From a virus, in the IMG/VR virus record IMGVR_UViG_3300005663_000142, positions 1 through 32,443 of that record: DNA of 32,443 nt; one strand, given 5' to 3'. Each line of letters begins with the position of its first letter. Position 1 is the stretch's first letter. Positions 8,951 to 28,600 of the stretch are shown in pieces. Both the position numbers and the translations under genes were made by a program. Under the pieces are notes generated by a model. That model saw only the letters and a program-made list of their open reading frames with translations. It did no database searches and was not told the origin of the DNA.

Positions 8951-10273
8951 ATGTCACCAAAGAAAACCACAACAAAGCCCAGTAATAAAACTACTTCTGC
9001 CGGCAGCTCCGGCCGACGTCGAGACAAGGCCCCAACCAAAGCAGCAAACGTACAACTGCAGCCGGCAGCCATCGACTCTATCATCAAGAACGTCCAGGAC
9101 CTGGCGATCGTATCGAAGTATGCCTCAGAGTCCAACTTCTTTGTCGGCCTGGACTCCCAGGCCAAGGCTTCAATGGTCATAGAGAAAGGCCGGGAGCTCG
9201 GCATCCACACAGTCTCGGCATGCCAGGTCATACACCCCATCCAGACTGCGGACGGCATCAAGCTGGCGATAGAAGCCAAGCTCTATGGCGCCATTGCAAT
9301 GAACGCCGGGATCCGGTGGAAGAAGATCAAGAAGGATGCCAAAGGATGTATCCTTGAATTCCATTCGATCATCGACAAGACCATCCCGGTCCACACTGAA
9401 ACCTTCACGATGGAGGACGCTGCCAGAGCAGGTCTCCATGAGAAGAAAAACTGGGTGTGGTATCCGGAAGAGATGTGTTATAACCGGTGTCTGCTCAAGG
9501 GGCTGCGGTACTTCGATCCCCGGATCTGCATGGGCCTCTATTCTGTTGAAGAGGTCCTCGATTTTGAGAAGATCACAAACGGCGAGGGAGAAGAGATCTA
9601 TGTGATACCCGAGGACACCCTCGGCAACGTGGGGATCCCTGACACTGAGACAGCTCCGGCTCAGACGGTGGCCGAAGCGCTGCCGGTAGAGACCGAGCCG
9701 GTAGAGACCGAGCCGGTAGAGACCGGGCCGGTAGAGACCGAGGCACCTGAGAGATCCGTTACGCCTGAGGAATTCGAGTACACCGATGAGGCCGGCGTTG
9801 AGGACGACGAGGAAGAGATCCCGGAAGTGGATCCACTAACGCTGGCACACGGTGAGGGGATGCCACGTCAGCCCAAGAAAGAATTCATGCCGTTCGAAGA
9901 GGCACCCAGCCCTTCCGAGCTCGACACCGGCAAGCGTGAGCTGGCTCCTGAGACTCCGGTGGATCCGGGGATCCTCATCCACAGGCAGGTTGTCGTCGAC
10001 TACATGAAGGTCCAGGGTATGGAAAATCTCTATACCACATTTAAAGAATGGCTGGCCCTCTTCCAGACTTCACGCAAACCGATGAAGAACTTTGTCGCAC
10101 GCAATCAGTTCGGCAAGTGGAGTCTTTCGAAGGGATCGATCGAGGATCTCAAGGTCCTCACTGATCATCTCAAATGGACCATGGATACCTTCATCACCTA
10201 CTGTTTCAATGAGCTCAAGCTCGACCACGTAGGCATCCACACGAACCCGGCGATGAACCCGGCACCTGAATGA
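8951..10273 (+). CDS. recT: RecT-like single-strand annealing protein with C-terminal extension
   Basis: The ATG at 8951 has AGGAGG 4 bases upstream and is preferred to a GTG at 8936. The protein has 440 residues. Residues 1-35 are a basic Ser/Thr/Lys tail. Residues 40-205 match the RecT annealing-protein pattern: KASMVIEKGRELGIHTVSA, a target strand around ILEFHS, then FTMEDAARAGL and NWVWYPEEMCYNRCLLKGLRYF. RecT proteins bind single-stranded DNA and promote annealing with an exonuclease partner, here the next gene. Residues 230-340 are an acidic linker with four PVETx repeats. Residues 340-425 form an additional helical domain not usual in RecT. The exonuclease gene overlaps the stop (ATGA). 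Confidence 0.75.
   Translation: MSPKKTTTKPSNKTTSAGSSGRRRDKAPTKAANVQLQPAAIDSIIKNVQDLAIVSKYASESNFFVGLDSQAKASMVIEKGRELGIHTVSACQVIHPIQTADGIKLAIEAKLYGAIAMNAGIRWKKIKKDAKGCILEFHSIIDKTIPVHTETFTMEDAARAGLHEKKNWVWYPEEMCYNRCLLKGLRYFDPRICMGLYSVEEVLDFEKITNGEGEEIYVIPEDTLGNVGIPDTETAPAQTVAEALPVETEPVETEPVETGPVETEAPERSVTPEEFEYTDEAGVEDDEEEIPEVDPLTLAHGEGMPRQPKKEFMPFEEAPSPSELDTGKRELAPETPVDPGILIHRQVVVDYMKVQGMENLYTTFKEWLALFQTSRKPMKNFVARNQFGKWSLSKGSIEDLKVLTDHLKWTMDTFITYCFNELKLDHVGIHTNPAMNPAPE
9683..9742 (+). repeat. four 15-bp tandem repeats in the RecT-like gene
   Basis: The unit CCGGTAGAGACCGAG occurs four times in a row, with one base changed in the third copy. Each unit encodes five residues (PVETE), so copy-number change keeps the frame and alters only the length of the acidic linker. 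Confidence 0.9.
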
Positions 10274-10989
10274 GTAAAGTCGATGCGCGCATCACACACA
10301 CGCGTGTGACACCGCGAAGGATCCTTCCTAAGCACAAGGAGCACACCCCCTACTTCAACGAGGCAGGGGTGAGAGTCCCGAGTGTAACGACGATCCTCGA
10401 GCGCCAGTGTGGATGGAGTAAGCTGGCGCTCTGTGGATGGAACAATAAGATGGGATTGAAAGGTGTCGACACTAAGAAATACCTGTCCGACAAGGGACAG
10501 ATAGGCACGCTGGCCCACGCATTCTGCACTGACTATCTCCTCCAGCAGCACACCGACATGGCTGACTACTCACCCAGCCAGGTAGAAGAGGCGAAACATA
10601 GCTTCTATGCCTTCCATAACTGGACCAAGCTCCACACCATAAGGCCCATCCTGCTCGAAGCACCGCTGGTCTCGGAGATCTATCAGTACGGTGGTCAGTG
10701 TGACATCTACGGTGAGGTCGATGGGCTCCTCGAGCTCTCGGATCTAAAGAGTGGATCCGGAGTGTACGAGGACATGATCGTCCAGGTCTCGGCATACAAA
10801 CAACTGCTGGAAGAACACGGCCACGCTGTCAACCGGGTCCGGATCATAAACATCCCACGCTCAGAGGACGAGACGTTTCTGGATCCCATCGTCACCAACC
10901 TGATGCCGGAAGCCTTCGAAGCATTCAAGCGATTCCGGGAGAACCATATAAGTCTTAATAAAATCAGACGCATGAGAGGTAGAGGATAA
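10270..10989 (+). CDS. RecB/Cas4-like PD-(D/E)XK exonuclease
   Basis: The protein has 239 residues and its ATG overlaps the RecT-like stop. The motifs of the RecB-type nuclease fold are in order: GTLAH (residues 79-83, His 83), G-x-C-D145-I-Y-G, D158-L-K160 with the following SGSG, and Q172-V-S-A-Y176 (the Q-x-x-x-Y helix). Such enzymes degrade one strand of duplex DNA ends and supply single strands to the annealing protein, as lambda Exo and RecE do for Beta and RecT. The N-terminus carries VPSVTTILE, also usual in this group. Overlap with RecT and SSB neighbours supports a recombination role. Confidence 0.8.
   Translation: MSKVDARITHTRVTPRRILPKHKEHTPYFNEAGVRVPSVTTILERQCGWSKLALCGWNNKMGLKGVDTKKYLSDKGQIGTLAHAFCTDYLLQQHTDMADYSPSQVEEAKHSFYAFHNWTKLHTIRPILLEAPLVSEIYQYGGQCDIYGEVDGLLELSDLKSGSGVYEDMIVQVSAYKQLLEEHGHAVNRVRIINIPRSEDETFLDPIVTNLMPEAFEAFKRFRENHISLNKIRRMRGRG
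10297..10308 (+). promoter_or_regulatory. palindrome near the exonuclease start (relative of the other two)
   Basis: CACACGCGTGTG is a perfect 12-bp palindrome, centred about 32 bases after the A of the start codon. The RadC copy is centred about 35 bases after its own start codon. The ACACG/CGTGT core is shared with the repeats at 6137 and 8924 but the 6-base spacing is lost. It may be coincidental. Confidence 0.3.
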
Positions 10990-11441
10990 TGGACACAAAT
11001 TCACTTAACTCTTTCACCATCCTCGGATTCGTTGGCCAGGATGCCAGGGGATACACATCGAAGAAGGCTTCCCGGAAGTTTACTGTTATCGACATATGTA
11101 CACAGGAAAAGTACAAGAACAAACCGGATCCCAAGATCGTCTGGCATAAAGTCCAGATCTGGGGCACCAAGATGGCCCCCTGGGCAGAGCGCGCCGTAAA
11201 GCGTGGGATGATGGTCCTGGCCAAGGGCCGGACAGACAACCACTTCATCATAAAGAAGTGTGCCGTCTGTGGCGCCGAGCAGAAAGAAATGATCACAGAT
11301 TATAAGGTCGAAGAGTTTATAATTCTAAGGGGCAAGAAACTTGAGGACCCAGCCACGGCTGGCCCGGCGCCGGCTGCAGCGCAACAGGTCCAGGCTGCAG
11401 CGCAGCAAGCTGCCCCAATAGTTGAGGAGGATCCTTATTAG
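10989..11441 (+). CDS. ssb: single-stranded DNA-binding protein
   Basis: The 150-residue protein follows the exonuclease directly (TAATG overlap). The OB-fold pattern is clear: FTILGFVGQDARG, then RKFTVIDICTQ, then IVWHKVQIWG, then AVKRGMMVLAKGR. A CAVC pair lies near residues 92-95. The linker is Ala/Gln/Pro-rich, with a nearly repeated QVQAAAQQ. The tail ends EEDPY, which replaces the usual DD(I/L)PF tip of bacterial SSBs. The tip of SSB normally recruits partner proteins. The same last three residues end the two replication proteins at 11764 and 12599. It protects single strands during replication and recombination. Confidence 0.85.
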   Translation: MDTNSLNSFTILGFVGQDARGYTSKKASRKFTVIDICTQEKYKNKPDPKIVWHKVQIWGTKMAPWAERAVKRGMMVLAKGRTDNHFIIKKCAVCGAEQKEMITDYKVEEFIILRGKKLEDPATAGPAPAAAQQVQAAAQQAAPIVEEDPY

Positions 11442-11545
11442 ATGCGTATGGGCCCATGCCGGTGACTCTCCTTTGATAGGTGTCGCGCCTTTCTCTCGTC
11501 TCCCGAGACATGTCCCGGATCTCATGGGCCCTTCCCTATAAAGAA

Positions 11546-11758
11546 ATGATTATTACAATCGGATACTGTTACCAATGCGACGAGGCCACCCTGTTTTGTC
11601 AATACCAAAGCATTCCCCAGCCAGGGATTCGCTGTAAAAAATGCGAATTTAGGATCGAAGGAAAATTGGGGATAAGAATTTCCATGGAAATAAAATCTCT
11701 TTGTCCAGAAGAGAGGAGGAAAATCTGGGAAGAATTCCTTGGAGCCAAAGGAAGGTAG
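11546..11758 (+). CDS. small zinc-ribbon protein
   Basis: I choose the ATG at 11546; an upstream GTG at 11480 is in frame but has no ribosome binding site, and even the ATG has only a weak one (AAAGAA). The 70 residues open IITIGYCYQCDEATLFCQ and continue IRCKKCEF, which gives two CxxC pairs for zinc. The rest is a basic helix (LCPEERRKIWEEF). The gap from SSB (11442-11545) contains no obvious promoter, only a GTCTC-CC-GAGAC inverted repeat near 11499-11510. Confidence 0.5.
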   Translation: MIITIGYCYQCDEATLFCQYQSIPQPGIRCKKCEFRIEGKLGIRISMEIKSLCPEERRKIWEEFLGAKGR

Positions 11759-11763
11759 CCAAC

Positions 11764-12612
11764 ATGCCAGAGTGGAGAAGATTATACCGTAGTGTCAGCG
11801 ACAGTAAGAAACTTTCGCGCTTGACATCGGATTCCCCGGTGATGCTGTGGACGTGGATGCTGCCGTACACGGATTGTGAAGGAAGAATCCTTGCGGATCC
11901 ACATTATCTCAAAGGTAAAATCGTTCCGCGCTTCGAACGCTGGACATACAAAACAGTGGAAGAAAACCTAAAAATCCTACACAACGTGCGTCTAATTCAG
12001 CTATATGAAGCCGACGGAGAGCCCATTGCCCAGTTTGAACAGCCGAATTTCGAAGACTTCCAACACCCACGGCGTGATAAGGAAGCAAAATCAAAGTTTC
12101 CACCACCTCCACCCCGAGACCCCGGGCAAGGTCCGGACCCACTCCAGAGTAAGCCGGGCAAGGTCCTTCCTAGAATAGAAGAGAGTAGAGTAGAAGAAGA
12201 AAGAAGAGAAGAGTCCGTCCCCGGGCAAGGTCCGGAGCTTGCCGGGCAAAGGACGGACCTGGCTGCTCCTCCTTCCTTTGCTGTCATTAAAAAATTTGTA
12301 GTAAAATCATGGAATGAATTCGCAAAGTCACACAGCCTAAAGCCTATCATCTCAATTGCAAAAGGATCTGAAAGAGAAAAACATTTTAAAGCTCGACATG
12401 AAGAACCAGCATTTGATTGGCCAATGATTATATCGATGGCTGAGAAGTCAGATTTTTGCTTTGGAAATAACGACAGGAACTGGAAGATCTCATTCGATTG
12501 GCTCATTAAAAATCCAGGAAATTATATTTATATCCTAGAGGAAAAATACCTGGATGATGATCAAAAGAAAAGAGAATTTAAACTCAAGGAGGGAGAAAAT
12601 GACCCATACTGA
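11764..12612 (+). CDS. phage replication initiator / replisome organiser
   Basis: The ATG at 11764 follows GGAAGG. The 282 residues have an N-terminal winged-helix part: RSVSDSKKLSRLTSDSPVMLWTWMLPY, then a helical turn with RWTYKTVEENLKILH, as in phage replication proteins that bind the origin. A Pro/Gly-rich linker at about 115-180 follows. The C-terminal part has W-P-M-I-I-S-M, SDFCFGNNDRNWKISFDWLI and YILEEKYLDD; this 'SxFxxGNNxxxWxxxFDWL...N...I..GKY' pattern is shared by many phage initiators. It ends ENDPY, the same final tripeptide as SSB. Its stop overlaps the next start. Confidence 0.75.
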   Translation: MPEWRRLYRSVSDSKKLSRLTSDSPVMLWTWMLPYTDCEGRILADPHYLKGKIVPRFERWTYKTVEENLKILHNVRLIQLYEADGEPIAQFEQPNFEDFQHPRRDKEAKSKFPPPPPRDPGQGPDPLQSKPGKVLPRIEESRVEEERREESVPGQGPELAGQRTDLAAPPSFAVIKKFVVKSWNEFAKSHSLKPIISIAKGSEREKHFKARHEEPAFDWPMIISMAEKSDFCFGNNDRNWKISFDWLIKNPGNYIYILEEKYLDDDQKKREFKLKEGENDPY

Positions 12613-13045
12613 ATTCACTGACCAGATGAATAAATTATTAATTTTTTATAGGAATCCACCGAAGGGTGCCGAGGAACACTATTGGAAAGCTCTACACCTC
12701 ACATCGGCAGCCACTTTTGAAAAGGCATGCGATCTTATCCTAAACACACATAAATTTTTATCCTTCCCTCTGATCCCTATCTTCCATGAGTGTATCGCTC
12801 AAGTAAGTAAAGAATCAGGATCGTCAGACCAATTACTCTTGTCTCATAATTGTCCAACCTGCAGAGGGATTGGGCTCACGCTCATTAATGATGAGAAGGG
12901 CAGGAATATTGCACACCCATGCTCCTGTAGTAAGGGCCTTATTTATAAAAGTTCTTTCGGCCGAGTCCGGAGTGCTGCAAAGAGACAGCAGCAGGAAATG
13001 ATCTCGAGACACGAGGAGCCAGCTCAATCAGGAGATCCATACTGA
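12599..13045 (+). CDS. helicase-loader-like protein with zinc ribbon
   Basis: The protein has 148 residues; the ATG at 12599 follows GGAGGGAGAA. Residues 5-65 form a helical unit (MNKLLIFYRNPPKGAEEHYWKAL, then FEKACDLILNTHKFLSFPLIPIFHEC) resembling the G39P-type N-terminal domain that binds replicative helicase. CPTC at about residue 85 with a later PCSCS provides a zinc site. It ends SGDPY. Position immediately after the initiator supports helicase loading or regulation, though no ATP-binding motif is present, so a DnaC-type loader can be excluded. Confidence 0.5.
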   Translation: MTHTEFTDQMNKLLIFYRNPPKGAEEHYWKALHLTSAATFEKACDLILNTHKFLSFPLIPIFHECIAQVSKESGSSDQLLLSHNCPTCRGIGLTLINDEKGRNIAHPCSCSKGLIYKSSFGRVRSAAKRQQQEMISRHEEPAQSGDPY

Positions 13046-13434
13046 TGGACCTTAAAAGAATAATCGCTGTAGATCTCGACGGCACAATTCTTAAAAATAA
13101 GAAACCATTTATGGGTGCAGACGACTTCGGTAAACCAGAAAGAAAAGTTGAGGATTGTCTCCGGTTTCTAAAGAACCATGGCTTTGAGATCCTGATACAC
13201 ACGACAAGGGTAAACCCCCGGCTGCAGGGCCTGGCGCCGGCCTTGTTGCGAATGAGGGTTTCCGACGCGCTCGATGCCCACAAGATCCCCTTCGATGGGA
13301 TCTGGACCGGACCCGGAAAGCCTTTGGCTGAATTCTATGTCGACGATCGAGGTGTCTTATATGCCGGGGACTGGGAGAAAACCATGAGAGAAATCCTGGC
13401 CAGAGCAGAGAAGAATTTTAAAAATGTATACTGA
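13045..13434 (+). CDS. HAD-family phosphatase-like protein
   Basis: The 129-residue protein overlaps the previous stop by one base. Residues 8-14 (AVDLDGT) carry the nucleophile D10 and acid/base D12. HTT at 52-54 is motif II. K92 and D100-D101 (GKPLAEFYVDDRG) are motifs III and IV. This is the minimal HAD Rossmann fold, as in small phosphatases and phage polynucleotide-kinase 3'-phosphatase-type domains. The substrate is unknown; nucleotide or DNA 3'-phosphate would suit the neighbouring replication genes. It is the last rightward gene. Confidence 0.75.
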   Translation: MDLKRIIAVDLDGTILKNKKPFMGADDFGKPERKVEDCLRFLKNHGFEILIHTTRVNPRLQGLAPALLRMRVSDALDAHKIPFDGIWTGPGKPLAEFYVDDRGVLYAGDWEKTMREILARAEKNFKNVY

Positions 13435-18400: not shown

Positions 18401-20811
18401 TCCGGAGCGTATGCAGCTTTCGCATTGTCGTTGAACCATTTGTGTCCGAGGTATATGAACCTCTTGAATGGTTCCTTTTCCAGTCCCGGGATGGCCGTCT
18501 CCTGGATCAAGTCAAGCTCCGGGAGATCCTCCAGGTCCTGGACGACCTGCTGTCTTTCGAGTGCTTCGGAAACATCCTTGCCCATGATCCTTTTGTTCTT
18601 ATTTTTTATGGAGATCTTCTCGGCTTCGATAAGCACTTCTTCACGATCGACCTCACGAGTTTGCTTTGCAATATAATCATCGAGGAATTCTCTGGCATCC
18701 GGAGTCAGCTTCTTCTCGATCTCCGGCATGGCGTCGAGCTCCTCCATCTCTGAGACTCCCCTTGCGATTTCTCTTTCTATGTCCTCAGTTCTTGCGACGT
18801 CTTCTGTGGAAATTCGAGAGATGACCTCAGTCTCTGTATAGATAGGCTCTTCAATGACTCTCTCCCGGGGGAGCTCGAGGGCATCGTAGAGCTCTGAGGT
18901 GGTGTCATATCCGAGGGCTGCAGCAACCTCGTCTGCAGCTTCACCGGTCCGGCTTTTGAGTCTTCGATCCAGCCTCAGTGCCTCTTCCTCTTCACCCTTT
19001 ATTGGCTTTATTCCTTTGTCGGTATACTGGAGGACACGGAACCATTCGTAAGGTACCGGTTTTGGCCACCTCCTGCCACTGACAACGCGAACAGGGAGCT
19101 TGACAGGCCCTACTCCCTCCACTTGGTACGTGGCCGTTTCCCGGCGCGTAAGGGCCTTTATTTCCCTTCCTGTTTCTGCCTCCATTCTCTTCCTGAATTC
19201 AGCCTGGCTTTTGACCATCCCCTCCTCGGTGATCCCTTCCGGAAGATAACTTACCGGGATCCCGAGCTCGTGTGCTTCCCGGGCCAATTCAGCAGGTGGG
19301 GCCCCGGCCTTTAATCTTTCGGCCAGGTCTGCAGCTTGGACCTTAAAAATCCTATCCCCCTCTGTGACCGGTGGCTCGAGCCCCCCCTCCCTGGGAAACG
19401 AAACATCTATGGATCCATCCGGCATTGGCTTTATGTTTACGGCCGGCGCTGCCTCGATCTCCGGAGTGATCCCCTGTCTTGCTGTTGCGATTGCAGCCTT
19501 AATGGGATCTGTACCAGGTGGGATGACTTCCGGCTTTGTCGTGACATCGAAGGCTCCGATCCCGAGCTGGCGAATCTCTGGCTCCGGTTCCGGGAAGATC
19601 CCGGATCTTGCCACGGCCAGCGCTTCGACTGCAGGATCTGTCCCGGGTAGAATAACTTCCGGCTTCGGTGTGACAGCGATCTGTCCCTTCCCGAGCTGGA
19701 GTGGATCCTCATAGATAGGGACCGGAGGAGTCGGCTCCACGGCCGGGATTGCAGCTTTGCCGGGAACAAAGGGGACTCTCGGAACCAGCTTGCCGGCTGC
19801 CGTGGCTGCTGCCGTTTCTGCTGCCGTCATGCCGGGAACCGTGATCGCCGTTTCCTTGGAGAGGACCGGGCCCATCTTAAACTTTGAGAATATATTTTTT
19901 ATGTTCTTATCGAGTCCGGAGAATTTGGAAAGATCCTTTCCGACCTCATTGAATTTGGCCTTGACAGCAGTGAGGGTCTCCTCGTCGACGCCGGCAGCCT
20001 TCATCCCTTTCGTCCACTTGTTAAATCCAAACTTAAAAGCCTTGTAAGAGATGGCTCTGCCGGTGATTGCTGCAGCAATAATATCGAGACCGGTCTCTCC
20101 AAGATCCGTGGCCAGCCTCACCCACCAGGGCGCATCCCTTATTCCCGGGATGGCTTCGCTCAGCCTCCGGTTTTCAAGTGGATCGTATTCAGTTTTTTCA
20201 GAGACCGAGAATCCGATGTTCTTCATCTGCTGGAAGAGCTCATAAAGCGCCATGTATCCTGCAGCTCCCGGGACGGTGGCAGCAATTACAACTGGGACAG
20301 CTTTGCCGGCAATTTTCTCTGACCAATAATTGACATTAGGATCTCGAGACCAAACTTCCTGGGCGACCCGGTAGTAACTCCTGGGCCTTGTGGCCACTTC
20401 ATACTGCCGGCCGTATTTCTTTTGGAACTCTATCTCTCCGGGAGTTTGAGGTCCGATAGTGGGAAGAGGTTTCTCTTCTTCTTTTTCTTCTGGCTTAGGA
20501 ACGCCGGCAAGGAGAGCTCCCCGGAGTCCCGGATCCTGCATCAAGAAAGGTAGGGTTTCTTTTTTTAAGAATCCCCCGATCTTGCCCAGCGCTTTAGTTA
20601 GGAAACTCTCTTCCTTTATGGGCTCGAGCTCCTCTTCCGGTGGACGGCCGAAGATGTTTTCCCAGGGTGTAATTCCGGCTGCCGGTGGCTCTTCTTTCTG
20701 TGGTGTCAACTGAACCGGTGGGACTAACGGAGGCTGCTTTCCCGGATCCAGCAGCGCCTCACCCGGAGGCCTCCCGAAGATCTTGTCCCAATAGTCCTGA
20801 CCGAATGCCAT
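15418..20811 (-). CDS. giant internal virion / ejection protein (1797 residues)
   Basis: The ATG overlaps the previous stop (TAATG). The N-terminus contains two copies of W-[DE]-x-IFGRPP-x-E (residues 8-19 and 50-61). Hydrophobic helices lie at about 168-190 and 235-255. A Pro/Glu-rich middle has a direct repeat (372-411 and 414-455, sharing KPEV and PGTDP). Residues from about 1060 to the end are helical and rich in Trp and Arg, with hydrophobic stretches near NPGFLPFYDAIQYFWLG and ALIGLLGGMLLREIF. I see no transglycosylase or peptidase motif. Size, place after three other probable ejection proteins, and membrane-seeking helices suggest a T7 gp16-like role in moving DNA across the envelope. 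It may also resemble large polyvalent phage proteins. Confidence 0.55.
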   Translation of the reverse strand: MAFGQDYWDKIFGRPPGEALLDPGKQPPLVPPVQLTPQKEEPPAAGITPWENIFGRPPEEELEPIKEESFLTKALGKIGGFLKKETLPFLMQDPGLRGALLAGVPKPEEKEEEKPLPTIGPQTPGEIEFQKKYGRQYEVATRPRSYYRVAQEVWSRDPNVNYWSEKIAGKAVPVVIAATVPGAAGYMALYELFQQMKNIGFSVSEKTEYDPLENRRLSEAIPGIRDAPWWVRLATDLGETGLDIIAAAITGRAISYKAFKFGFNKWTKGMKAAGVDEETLTAVKAKFNEVGKDLSKFSGLDKNIKNIFSKFKMGPVLSKETAITVPGMTAAETAAATAAGKLVPRVPFVPGKAAIPAVEPTPPVPIYEDPLQLGKGQIAVTPKPEVILPGTDPAVEALAVARSGIFPEPEPEIRQLGIGAFDVTTKPEVIPPGTDPIKAAIATARQGITPEIEAAPAVNIKPMPDGSIDVSFPREGGLEPPVTEGDRIFKVQAADLAERLKAGAPPAELAREAHELGIPVSYLPEGITEEGMVKSQAEFRKRMEAETGREIKALTRRETATYQVEGVGPVKLPVRVVSGRRWPKPVPYEWFRVLQYTDKGIKPIKGEEEEALRLDRRLKSRTGEAADEVAAALGYDTTSELYDALELPRERVIEEPIYTETEVISRISTEDVARTEDIEREIARGVSEMEELDAMPEIEKKLTPDAREFLDDYIAKQTREVDREEVLIEAEKISIKNKNKRIMGKDVSEALERQQVVQDLEDLPELDLIQETAIPGLEKEPFKRFIYLGHKWFNDNAKAAYAPDSKVYPARALKTNQQVEKDFGIDLYRQVGAIQSRDALSRELRSLWRDREAGITPKLIAPLPKVREGRRPWAATTTPVKRKPIVPKFGKPAPKQLGLVEREPDQLELEAEKVLERITGKPTPPTPPTVPKKEKAVKVSPKKERLVKVSVETPLGDIEKLGEIPESRLKSIEDYAKKLGIGKKLKVGAPFVGKYGEILSPAQQEIFMKEVIRDVKKKPKSEWQKWTEPGDDIKDLYAGIPVTPEVKKFGEKMVRWLQIEPEFRAMGADRTGLALKALHPRTNAVLLQAKGSIKKLMSKKQNFTPGFTDSDYQRLLFIVSAPRRHFEKMTPAERAKFEPAAKFVRGFFDHWGREIQKKGIIDDLWPQSAVRFMNIEIADFEAALKRRGLSNKRGKEIRDKINKLKGAIEFLRKSGTKYVHIPKFWMEAWWAKDPIEGWKTLSEFFHRRKSLDLEEFAKELIKQGKIKPTDLDIRRVMAAYAHLAGAKLAIADVFRAAKADRLILPSDEAPETWQSLSPVRYPSLKGYRAHPVLVHFFERNFFKQSFMSPRLGGFLGLVKMLQFYNPGFLPFYDAIQYFWLGLLSPWRTPSAIRSAAISMKKKDQHYWNMHYWGGFSTPFTPGWKAWDKQINDIINSKSAFTRFKKLNPYFWAWEGAWWGDNLIRLVTYHHQLSQGATPIEAAQITARLHGDYASIPPATRKIINKILFTPSFRIAMISAQAEMVKNAAGLLFKAKKEAQDGGKLPPGDLFEEPIDGSIPEGPGRSKRYKRAMAKALIGLLGGMLLREIFMHKLGYKTDKFGLRYVKTVTSEGEEKELVQYMSSPDNVLLRYWHRFRTLANEPDKLKGMIDRAKWDFHPFWQLIYEVLANRDPAGEPIYRPGLESSAKIGTEILEYSIKRILRILELVSEETPGKRKLAIEAMYRDMGKLGHFFRWFTLPYLRNTEEKRMMWRMNFMMREFNRLQREKPFDTEKQSKEAASRVNEFLKKMQKDIEEKK

Positions 20812-23806: not shown

Positions 23807-24439
23807 TTATTTAATCAGAATTGTTTTTGATCCTAGAGAATCTATCTCAAAATGAAAATCTACATCAAAGATAATCACATCTTGAGCTAAAGTATCATTC
23901 GCGTGTGATGAATTCCTAAAAAACCTACATGATAAGACACTGGATATTCTCATTCCTGTGCCAGTGATTGCCGGGAATAGAGTTTTATACTGTTTCCCGT
24001 GTATTAAAGTCCCATCCCCCGATGTTGACGCGGCTGCAGCGCTCGAGGCATCTGAATAGATAATAGTTGTATTTGCAGGGAAGTTTTCGTTTATATTAAC
24101 CCAGGTATATTCTAATCCAAACTTGACAAACTCACCAGCAGCGCCACTTACAAGCGGTGTCCAATGAACATGAAAATTAAGATCGGCTCCCTCTTTATAG
24201 CTATGTGGTAATTGGGTATCGAAGAATACCTCCTCTTCGTTTCCAGCGACGACCTGGTAAGCAAAATGCCAATCATAAATGCCTCTAGAGCCTGCCCCAT
24301 CATCTTTCCATTTGGTGAAGGTTGGATCTTTCACTCCACCTGTTTTAATAGAGTTCAAAGGGACTCTTAAATCATCCCATCTTGGGTTTAAAAAGGCATC
24401 GATTTCCTGCTGAGTATAGAAGTGAAAATCTTTGAGCAT
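23807..24439 (-). CDS. beta-rich virion protein
   Basis: The 210-residue protein abuts the lectin-like gene (its ATG follows that gene's TAA). It opens with a helix and then shows beta strands around GIYDWHFAYQ, EEVFFDTQLPHSYKEGADLNFHVHW and EFVKFGLEYTWVNIN. The LPHSYKEG...HVHW pattern is one I recall from phage virion genes next to tail-fibre genes; no function is known to me. It is likely an external tail component. Confidence 0.5.
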   Translation of the reverse strand: MLKDFHFYTQQEIDAFLNPRWDDLRVPLNSIKTGGVKDPTFTKWKDDGAGSRGIYDWHFAYQVVAGNEEEVFFDTQLPHSYKEGADLNFHVHWTPLVSGAAGEFVKFGLEYTWVNINENFPANTTIIYSDASSAAAASTSGDGTLIHGKQYKTLFPAITGTGMRISSVLSCRFFRNSSHANDTLAQDVIIFDVDFHFEIDSLGSKTILIK

Positions 24440-25270
24440 TTATTCTACCTTTACAGTCCTGGATTTCCCCAGTGGCCCTATTTGATCGCTTGCGATATAC
24501 CGGAAGAGATCAAAGTAACCATAGATTGTGATTCCGGTATTGTTATTGGACGTCACGATGCCCATTTGAGCCGGCGCAAACGGCTGGGTGTGGGTGTAGA
24601 TCCTCTGCCAACTGACGCCATCAGAGCTGTAGTCATAATAAAGAGTTGTCCCATTTCTCCGGATCCTGAAATAGACCGTTGTATTGGGATACATGGTCCC
24701 TCCGGCATAATTGGCAGAGAAAGTCTGATAGTCAGAATTTCTCTGAGCATGGATATCTCTATACTTATTGCCGGACGCCCTTTGGAAATTTATGAGCACA
24801 AGTATATCTGCATTTATGTCTGTGGCATCTTCGAATAGAGCCAGGCATGCGGTGGAGTCGCCGAGGCTGCTTGCGATAAGCTGGCATTTGGCTGCGATCG
24901 TAAAATCTCCTGCAGGAAGAACCTGATAAATCCCCCTGTACCGGGCTGCCCCTTCAGTCGTATGGGTAAGAATCACGTGATGGCCAGCCGGTTCAGAAAC
25001 AGTCAAGGCAGCAGCACCCAAGTCCCATTCTGTCCATTTTGCAGCCAATGCAGCATTATCAAAATGATCATCCTGGGAAGATGGAGTATCAGGGAGTGCA
25101 TCGGGATCCCAAAACGAGTAGGAACTGCCTCCACCGACTTGGACATCTCCGGATCCAGTTCCCATCCACATTATTTCTGTGTCTGTACAATAGAAAAACC
25201 GGCCTTCCTCTATCCCAGCATAGGTCACCCTCTGAGCATCGGTACATCTTACGACTAAAATCTGTCCCAT
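24440..25270 (-). CDS. tail protein with ConA-like lectin domain
   Basis: In this 276-residue protein, residues 1-55 have a small leader with YAGIEEGRFFYCTDT. From about residue 66 the pattern DDHFDNAALAAKWTEWDLG, GDFTIAAKCQLIAS, YPNTTVYFRIRRNGTTLYYDYS and DGVSWQRIYTHT is the beta-jelly-roll of the concanavalin-A-like / DUF1349 type, ending with the usual DLFRY strand. Such domains bind glycans, so a receptor-recognition role is likely. It lies beside the fibre-like gene at 25280. Confidence 0.65.
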   Translation of the reverse strand: MGQILVVRCTDAQRVTYAGIEEGRFFYCTDTEIMWMGTGSGDVQVGGGSSYSFWDPDALPDTPSSQDDHFDNAALAAKWTEWDLGAAALTVSEPAGHHVILTHTTEGAARYRGIYQVLPAGDFTIAAKCQLIASSLGDSTACLALFEDATDINADILVLINFQRASGNKYRDIHAQRNSDYQTFSANYAGGTMYPNTTVYFRIRRNGTTLYYDYSSDGVSWQRIYTHTQPFAPAQMGIVTSNNNTGITIYGYFDLFRYIASDQIGPLGKSRTVKVE

Positions 25271-25279
25271 GGTTATCTC

Positions 25280-25690
25280 CTATATTGAATCCTCGACAGT
25301 TATTGTGTTTCCTGCATAGGAATCTTCAATCCGGATAAGAGCAACGAGGGCCTCAAACATTGTGGTGCACGTGTAATCTATGGAATCCTCAAAGTCCAGA
25401 TCCATCAGTTGGTTCTTCCAGCACTCCTCGACTTCATCATACATGAGAAAATTATGCCTGGCCAACGTGGTGAGGCAAGTCGGGAGTGGCGCCGTCAGCG
25501 CTGCAAGGAGGGCATCGACCTCAGCCTTCGTGTAGTAACCACTGAGATCTATTGGATCCGGCTCTGTGTCGCCGTGTAGGTGGATATCATGGACGACTCC
25601 AGGTCTCAGGACCTTATCCCGAAAATCCTTTTCCTTGTCAGGTTCCTGAAGGAACTCCTGATATTTGTCGTCGTCTTCTTTTCTGCCCAT
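25280..25690 (-). CDS. tail-fibre-like protein
   Basis: The 136-residue protein contains SGYYTKAEVDALLAAL at about residues 50-65, the common trimeric fibre motif YYTKxExDxLL found in phage fibres and their assembly domains. The N-terminus is charged (GRKEDDDKYQEFLQEPDKEKDF), and a helical end follows. It probably connects the nozzle to the lectin-bearing protein or trimerises. Its start overlaps the preceding stop by one base (TAATG). Confidence 0.6.
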   Translation of the reverse strand: MGRKEDDDKYQEFLQEPDKEKDFRDKVLRPGVVHDIHLHGDTEPDPIDLSGYYTKAEVDALLAALTAPLPTCLTTLARHNFLMYDEVEECWKNQLMDLDFEDSIDYTCTTMFEALVALIRIEDSYAGNTITVEDSI

Positions 25691-28600
25691 TAATCTGCCT
25701 TGACACCATAATTCATTTTTAGATTCTTATTGAAGAAAAGGTCATATCCAACTACCTTGCACTCACCTCCAGTTTTTTCGTTGTTTATAAATTTAAAACT
25801 CACATATGTTCCGGGGATCCTCAGGTTCTGTCTTGCCAGAATATCATTCCGGAGCTCGACATTGTCAGTTGGAGTGGTCCCAACGAACGAGGCCGTTGCG
25901 ACTTTTGTCTTTTGCTGATCCGCATAGATCTCCATCGTCAAGGTCTTTTGGTCCGGGAGCTGGTATTTAAGCCACATTCTACGGAGCACGTTGTTCAACT
26001 CTCTCTCCGAGGTTACATTAAAATGTCCGGTCTGGAAGTGAGAGTTTATGGCTGTGCCATTATCATCAAATCCGCGTCCCTGGATGTAGACGTTTCCGTC
26101 CTCTGTGCCGGTCAAAAACATAAGCCCCTCGATCCTCGTCGTTGTGCTCATGAGGTATGTAAGTTTCTCCGGAAAGGTATAGATCGTAAACCATCTCTTT
26201 ATGTAGTTGTAGACGAGCATCGTGTCCGGCTCTGTGTTGGATCCGGTGCAGAGTCCCAGCCAGTACTCCCCATCATCAAAATTATGGCCACCGACATTCT
26301 TGTGCTGGGCTTCGGGATTCAATGTGGCCAGCGTCCTTTCAACGAGATCTGAAGATATCGGCCGGAAGCAGGAGTTTCCGTTAAAGACTTCGATTCCAAA
26401 GGGAGACTTCCAAATTAAAAATTTATCACACACGACAACGGACCATGAGGAGTTGGTCCCGATGTTCTGTGGGAGCTGCTCGAGCTCGTAAAGTGAGGAC
26501 CCTACCTTTGAAAGTCTGAATCCGGAGTCGGTCTTGAGTATGATCAGCCTGTCACCGAATGCTTTTATTTGCCTTAATCTGTCACTCTCTCTGGCTTTGA
26601 CCTGGATAAAATTTGCGTCGGCCATTTCTTCTGAGGTCCCGGTGTTGGTGAAGTAGAGGAAATTCTCATACCCTTCGACGCCGGCGATCCAGAGACGATT
26701 ATCCCAGACTTCCATAAACGGACCAATGGGTGGGACTCCCCGATCATAACTGACTTCGGATCCACCGAGAACAATATTGTCGCTTGCCCTGTCCGTTAAA
26801 GTCGTTGTCGTATTATCAGAGATGTCGGCGAACCAAAAGAAAATCTCCCCACCTGCAGTCGTCCGGTAGAGTCTCCGGGCATTGCACTTAGGATCCGGAG
26901 ACACCGGGATGTTTGTAAGCAGAATCTTCTCTGCGTCCGGATAGATAAATGCAGATTCTGGAGATGGATTGCTTTCGACAGGATAGTTCCCGGATCTTTG
27001 GAAAGTCACTACATACTTAAATCCACCGACCGAGCTGTCTCCGGTCAGTGCCCATTCCTGTGCAGCCGTGTAGTCAAGTTCCGGAAGATAGGCTCCTTTA
27101 AGGTCTATGGATCCGAATCCAATATATTGGAGTACTGATGCTGCAGCGTTGGAGCCGGTGAAACAAAGAAGATTCAAGATATTGCCACCACCGGCACCGT
27201 CAGATGCGATCTTAAAAACATTCCCGGACTCAAAAGTCACCGTATAGGTGGACGCTCCGGCTGCCTCCATCTGTGCCTTGATCTCAGCACAAATAGATGC
27301 TGTCGAATAAGTGGCATTTGTAAGTGTCGCGGTGATCTCGACTCCGTCAGTCTCCTCAAAATCGAGCTTATTATTTGTGGCATCGATAACTATATCCCCA
27401 CTTAAAGCCAGTGTGGGTGCCGAGACTGGAGGTTGGAGACCGAGGCTGTACACCGTGTTCCCTTCGATTGTCACCATTTGATCGAGTGCGATCGTCAACC
27501 GGCCGTCCTCTACCGTTCCTGCAGGAACAGGACCCGGAATCTCCTCACTCGTCGAATAAATTTCAGTGTATGTATTTGTTGAAAGGGTTCTCTTATGGAT
27601 CTCTCTATATTTCCCAGCATAGAGATTTCCTTGGAATTCGATAATATCTCCATGGCCATGGTTGGCAGCAGCAGCGTTTGTGGCAATATTTATCTCGGAA
27701 ACGAACGCACTACTTATTGAATCCCAGGTCCAAATCTGATAAGTCCTTGCTCCTGCCCAGTCCTTAAAAGAGCCTATGGAAACCTTGCCCTCAAAGACTG
27801 CCTCACCCATAACCATGCCCATGGCCAGGGATCCATTTTCCTCTGTCCAAGTGTTTAGATCCGGAGATGAATAGATTTTATTGTCGTTCCCATCAGGATC
27901 TGCATCAGTAACATACTCGAACTTTTGTACAATAACCCAGGCTTTTGAATTACTGTAAAAATAAGAACAGAAACAATAATCATCCACTCCGGAGCTGTCA
28001 TAGATCTTGTTAAATCTATCATAGAGAGTCACATTAAAAGCGTGTATTTCCCAGGTCCATTTTCCCCCACCGTCTTTAGTTGAAACAGCAAGATGAAGGA
28101 CATTGTTCCACGTAAATAACTTTGCAATTCTATTCCGGATATCAGAATTGAAGAGTTGGGCTGATCCGGAAGGAAGCTCTGCAGCTCCATCGTAATTTGA
28201 GATGAGACTGTAGGAAGCTCCATCGTAAGAATAGACTGTATATCCAGCCGTTCTGTAAACGAGGATCCAGAGTTTCCCATCCCAATTGTGCATGCCGATT
28301 GTGTACTGTCCTCCAACAGCAGCAGGGAGCTCCTCGTTAAAGGATCCGTCATACCGGCAGACAAGCTCATCGGTGGCAAATGCGCTGGAAAGACCGAAGA
28401 AAATCTCGTCTGCAAACACTGAAGCGCATTGGCCTTGGGAGACATTGGGGGTAATAGTAGGAGTATATGTATCTAACGTCGACCATGTTTCTCCGTCTGC
28501 CGACTCCATGATTTTGATGTCTGCCCCTGCTGACTGATCGAGGAAGCAGAGCTTGTTCTGGTAGACGAAGGGAGCTCTGGGATCTATATTGTAGAAAGAG

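Follow-up and report, generated by a model that had tools for sequence, protein, structure and literature searches.

A C-terminal [Asp/Glu]-Pro-Tyr tail shared by the SSB, the replication initiator and a neighbouring protein in two related phages

The early gene region and its three Asp-Pro-Tyr ends

The window analysed here is the whole IMG/VR virus record IMGVR_UViG_3300005663_000142 (32,443 bases). Its early replication and recombination region contains the following features, for which "the relative" is a second phage described below.

8951-10273, + strand: RecT-like annealing protein (phrog_561, 2e-4), without a DPY tail; 60% identical to the relative's copy
9941-10246, + strand: RecT C-terminal domain (residues 331-432), 67% identical to the relative; a proposed tail-binding site, by analogy with the Red-beta C-terminal domain
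10270-10989, + strand: exonuclease (phrog_298, 2e-24), without a DPY tail
10989-11441, + strand: SSB of 150 aa with an OB-fold, C-terminus ..VEEDPY (phrog_44, E 1e-6; PF00436, 1e-5)
11430-11438, + strand: DPY tail codons of the SSB, GAT CCT TAT (GAT CCG TAC in the relative)
11546-11758, rightward: small ORF between the SSB and the initiator
11764-12612, + strand: DnaD/O-like replication initiator of 282 aa, C-terminus ..GENDPY, matching a DnaD-like helicase loader family (phrog_10469, 7e-17) and three families of replication initiation proteins (phrog_19658, 2e-13; phrog_345, 4e-8; phrog_1408)
12601-12609, + strand: DPY tail codons of the initiator, GAC CCA TAC (GAA CCG TAC, or EPY, in the relative); in another frame, the start of the next gene
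12599-13045, + strand: 148-aa protein with a CxxC..CxC zinc-finger-like set, C-terminus ..SGDPY; overlaps the initiator gene
13034-13042, + strand: DPY tail codons of the 148-aa protein, GAT CCA TAC, adjoining the HAD start codon (TGATGG); tail kept in the relative
13045-13434, rightward: HAD-type phosphatase, directly after the 148-aa gene

The OB-fold of the SSB is of the PF00436 type: the window protein, at 25.7 bits, falls just short of the family cut-off of 26, the relative's SSB matches the family at 3e-15, and PDB SSBs match the window protein at 9e-7. Comparison of the 148-aa protein with Pfam, PHROG and PDB yielded no meaningful hit, to helicase loaders of the G39P, DnaC or DnaI type or otherwise, and its AlphaFold model, computed from a two-row alignment, is poor (pLDDT 48). 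The sequence-only reading had presented this protein as loader-like, a label given by gene position only, with no family match behind it.

The genes of the SSB, the initiator and the 148-aa protein end GAG GAG GAT CCT TAT TAG, AAT GAC CCA TAC TGA and GGA GAT CCA TAC TGA, respectively, so that the tails EEDPY, ENDPY and SGDPY lie where, and are encoded as, that reading had described them. It had also excepted RecT, the exonuclease and the HAD protein, and indeed, among the 48 window genes (a hand-made list), only the above three end in DPY, which is the sole C-terminal tripeptide to recur. When all stop-bounded window frames of at least 15 aa were considered, a Pro-aromatic C-terminus preceded by an acidic residue was again confined to these three, while internal DPY was absent from the 10,166 positions of the window proteins. 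From composition, three DPY ends among 48 genes have a probability of approximately 3e-8, or 5e-8 once a 1.25-fold excess of Asp-Pro is allowed for. Simulation with 48 genes gave a probability of approximately 0.001 that any tripeptide is common to at least three of them, and this post-hoc value is the fair chance figure for the window genome taken alone.

Retention of the tails in a diverged relative

Viral and genome data were searched with the SSB, the initiator, the 148-aa protein, the exonuclease, a DNA pattern of the initiator and the structural proteins. The viral scans yielded one relative with this gene region, IMGVR_UViG_3300035698_012813, which was found through the structural-protein search, is syntenic with the window and includes the early region; the other related record is a fragment without these genes, and the genome scans with these queries gave no match. 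The shared tail is thus known from two genomes in the data examined. In the relative, the SSB ends QKDPY, the initiator NNEPY and the homologue of the 148-aa protein (152 aa; 49% identical over the full length) APDPY, with an overall identity of 48-52% for the three tailed proteins. Only 2 of the 12 residues preceding the tail are identical in the SSB, and 1 of 12 in the 148-aa protein, while the tail itself is identical at 3 of 3 positions in both. The initiator keeps Pro-Tyr and an acidic residue before it; here 6 of the 12 preceding residues are identical, and the initiator tail alone is therefore weaker evidence. Among 6 control ortholog pairs from the same region, none keeps all of the last three residues, and 4 keep none or one. 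The relative, which was found afterwards, is an independent confirmation of the shared tail. With the simulated figure of 0.001 and the tails kept in the relative, chance was rejected: the shared DPY tails are not fortuitous.

The sequence-only reading had also held that the tripeptide seems to be maintained at the protein level and not simply copied as DNA, and had proposed to look for a conserved tripeptide between varying flanks. That is what the SSB and the 148-aa protein display in the relative, and the comparison indicates that the tails are kept at the protein level across approximately 50% divergence in three proteins. The part of the claim concerning copied DNA fared differently: the last 12 bases of the initiator gene and the 148-aa gene (GACCCATACTGA and GATCCATACTGA) show 1 difference only, so that the window alone does not allow copying to be argued away, and it is the relative that argues for upkeep of the protein sequence. 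The description of the tails as an acidic tip was overstated, as KDPY, SGDPY and PDPY are not strongly acidic; the conserved core is [DE]PY at the C-terminus, in a weakly acidic context.

The relative harbors a fourth tail. A 279-aa protein encoded directly upstream of RecT, and unrelated to the other tailed proteins, ends GSDPY. This protein (positions 1647-2486 of the relative's stretch) has a lysine-rich N-terminus, matched no known family and has no homologue in the window; the phage-collection searches returned no homologues of either the 148-aa or the 279-aa protein. Across the seven tails (3 in the window and 4 in the relative), the Pro, Tyr and stop codons differ. A run of 15 bases, GATCCATACTGATGG, is identical between window positions 13034-13048, where the 148-aa gene ends in front of HAD, and positions 2475-2489 of the relative's stretch, where the 279-aa gene ends in front of RecT. 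This match possibly reflects a recombining gene-end cassette, and some of the tails, at least, may have been transferred as DNA from one gene end to another, with selection at the protein level then retaining them.

Two explanations would make the tail a by-product of the DNA in which it is encoded. It is highly improbable that the [DE]PY codons are kept for gene packing, as the next gene's ribosome-binding site, start codon or stop/start junction. The initiator's last codons do form the start of the next gene in both phages (AATGACCCATACTGA in the window and AATGAACCGTACTGA in the relative), and the tail of the window 148-aa protein abuts the TGATGG junction. However, the overlap carries 2 base differences (GACCCA to GAACCG) which retain [DE]PY, whereas the overlapping protein has Thr-His in the window and Asn-Arg in the relative, so that it is the tail which is preserved; the relative's 148-aa homologue precedes a different gene, without overlap, and still keeps DPY; and the codons of the SSB tail lie outside any other recognised gene in both phages. 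Retention of DPY at a changed junction, together with the substitutions in the overlap, largely refutes this explanation. Still more improbable is that Asp-Pro codon pairs arise from an excess of GATC and GGATCC. GGATCC is over-represented approximately 8 to 14 times over base composition in these phages, and 4 of the 7 tails contain it, but Asp-Pro is only 1.25 times over-represented, internal DPY is lacking, the corrected chance figure stays at the value given above, and both initiator tails as well as the tail of the window 148-aa protein are free of GGATCC. On the modest Asp-Pro excess, the zero count of internal DPY and the three GGATCC-free tails, this explanation was rejected.

Comparison with known C-terminal tips and with other phages

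The C-terminal tip of bacterial SSB, DDDIPF, is a Pro-aromatic interaction tip bound by partner proteins. The window SSB resembles it in having a conserved Pro-aromatic C-terminus, with an acidic residue nearby, after a variable low-complexity linker on an OB-fold. In contrast to the bacterial tip, the window tails end in Tyr and not Phe, possess one reliably acidic residue and are also found on proteins other than SSB. The closest parallel is phage T7, where the tips of the SSB gp2.5 and the helicase-primase gp4 read ..DEDGDF and ..SNDTDF and where the gp2.5 tail contacts gp5 at sites that overlap those of gp4. The gp4 tail itself attaches to basic patches of gp5 (PMC12593628). In T7, the SSB and another replication protein thus end in a common short acidic-aromatic tip (DGDF and DTDF); likewise, in both the window phage and its relative, the C-terminal tip of the SSB recurs on the initiator and the 148-aa protein. 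The T7 tails differ in being long and highly acidic, with a terminal Phe and no Pro, and their receptor is the phage's own DNA polymerase, a protein that was not seen in the window phage; moreover, the carriers in the window group are an initiator, the small 148-aa protein and the fourth protein.

Annealing proteins that need an SSB tip offer another likeness. In phage HK620, binding of the annealase Sak4 to DNA covered by the phage SSB depends on the last six residues of that SSB (NDYPPF; PMC5928155). Red-beta uses its C-terminal domain to bind SSB (PMC8303780), and for RecT proteins, host range has been linked to how the final residues of SSB are recognised (PMC10711431). In the window, too, the SSB and RecT genes lie close together; unlike these systems, the window phage's initiator also bears the tip, and the literature searched held no case of a phage initiator doing so.

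As controls, we took nine phages that encode a distant relative of the initiator and eight more with an SSB or RecT relative and read their early regions, a small sample and not a census. Of 13 SSB tips in these regions, 12 end PF and 1 ends PFQ, against which Tyr is unusual as the tip residue. No clear tip sharing was seen among the sampled phages with ..PF SSB tips, and the distant initiator homologues (from Paenibacillus, Moorella, Rhodobacteraceae, Ruminococcus and faecal phages) have neither the tail nor a tip matching their SSB. The sequence-only reading had named homologues without a conserved tail as evidence against it. The distant initiators do lack the tail, but their SSBs, where seen, end ..PF, and the nearest relative keeps all three tails. 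Among the phages examined, T7 is the clear exception in that gp2.5 and gp4 share a tip. Salinibacter phage M8CR30-2, in which an annotated DNA primase (24292-26562) ends ..RDAPF and the SSB (20004-20459) ends ..DDELPF, may be a second, weaker case. We conclude that the occurrence of one SSB-type tip on several unrelated replication proteins of a phage is real, selected and unusual, and a variant of the T7 arrangement.

The tail as a putative docking motif

By analogy with these systems, we consider it probable that the shared [DE]PY tail is a docking motif through which several replication proteins attach to the receptor that the phage's own SSB uses. Ending in a free carboxylate, the terminal [Asp/Glu]-Pro-Tyr would be a short linear motif that corresponds to the Pro-aromatic tip of a bacterial SSB. 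The SSB, the initiator, the 148-aa neighbour and, in the relative, also the fourth protein carry it. All these tails would be expected to fit one pocket, on either the C-terminal domain of the phage RecT or host SSB-binding replication proteins. At an origin or fork that has opened and become covered by SSB, the tail would bring the initiation proteins to this common partner, on which the tails of the initiator and its neighbour would alternate with the SSB tail. We infer three things here, namely that the tails bind, that they have a common partner, and what this partner is. The candidate receptors are the RecT C-terminal domain and host SSB-binding proteins, the former put forward because it is 67% identical between window and relative, as against 30% for the preceding linker; the AlphaFold model of RecT (two-row alignment) has a pLDDT of 35. 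If the docking interpretation is true, phages can use the SSB tip as a transferable tag for their initiation proteins, and the tail peptides should compete for one pocket, which would reveal a receptor linking initiation with the handling of single-strand DNA.

Alternatively, the tails could dock on the OB-fold of the phage's own SSB, at a site that may be occupied by the SSB tail in the absence of DNA, and SSB would then recruit the other proteins directly, with no third-party hub. Every tailed protein is encoded together with this SSB, but the best-studied tips are read by partner proteins and not by SSB, and we regard this arrangement as unlikely. Very unlikely, in our opinion, is a C-terminal signal unrelated to SSB partners, such as one for degradation or processing in an unusual host; the confinement of the tail to the early replication and recombination region would fit such a signal, whereas its presence on an SSB, a family with a known Pro-aromatic interaction tip, speaks against it. 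A more elaborate form of the docking interpretation, to which we give a rather low but not negligible likelihood, is a private tail code, whereby at least four unrelated proteins (SSB, initiator, neighbour and the 279-aa protein) would have acquired the DPY tag in order to be assembled by a single receptor that the phage encodes, perhaps the C-terminal domain of RecT, thereby coupling origin firing to recombination.

Apart from the tails, GATC and GGATCC are strongly over-represented in the window and in related phages. GGATCC occurs 59 times in the window against 7.6 expected from base composition, and 34, 38 and 39 times against 2.5, 4.1 and 4.0 expected in three stretches of related phages. 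No wider consensus was found around these sites, and GGATCC, which resembles a highly iterated palindrome, may serve as a marker of the host.
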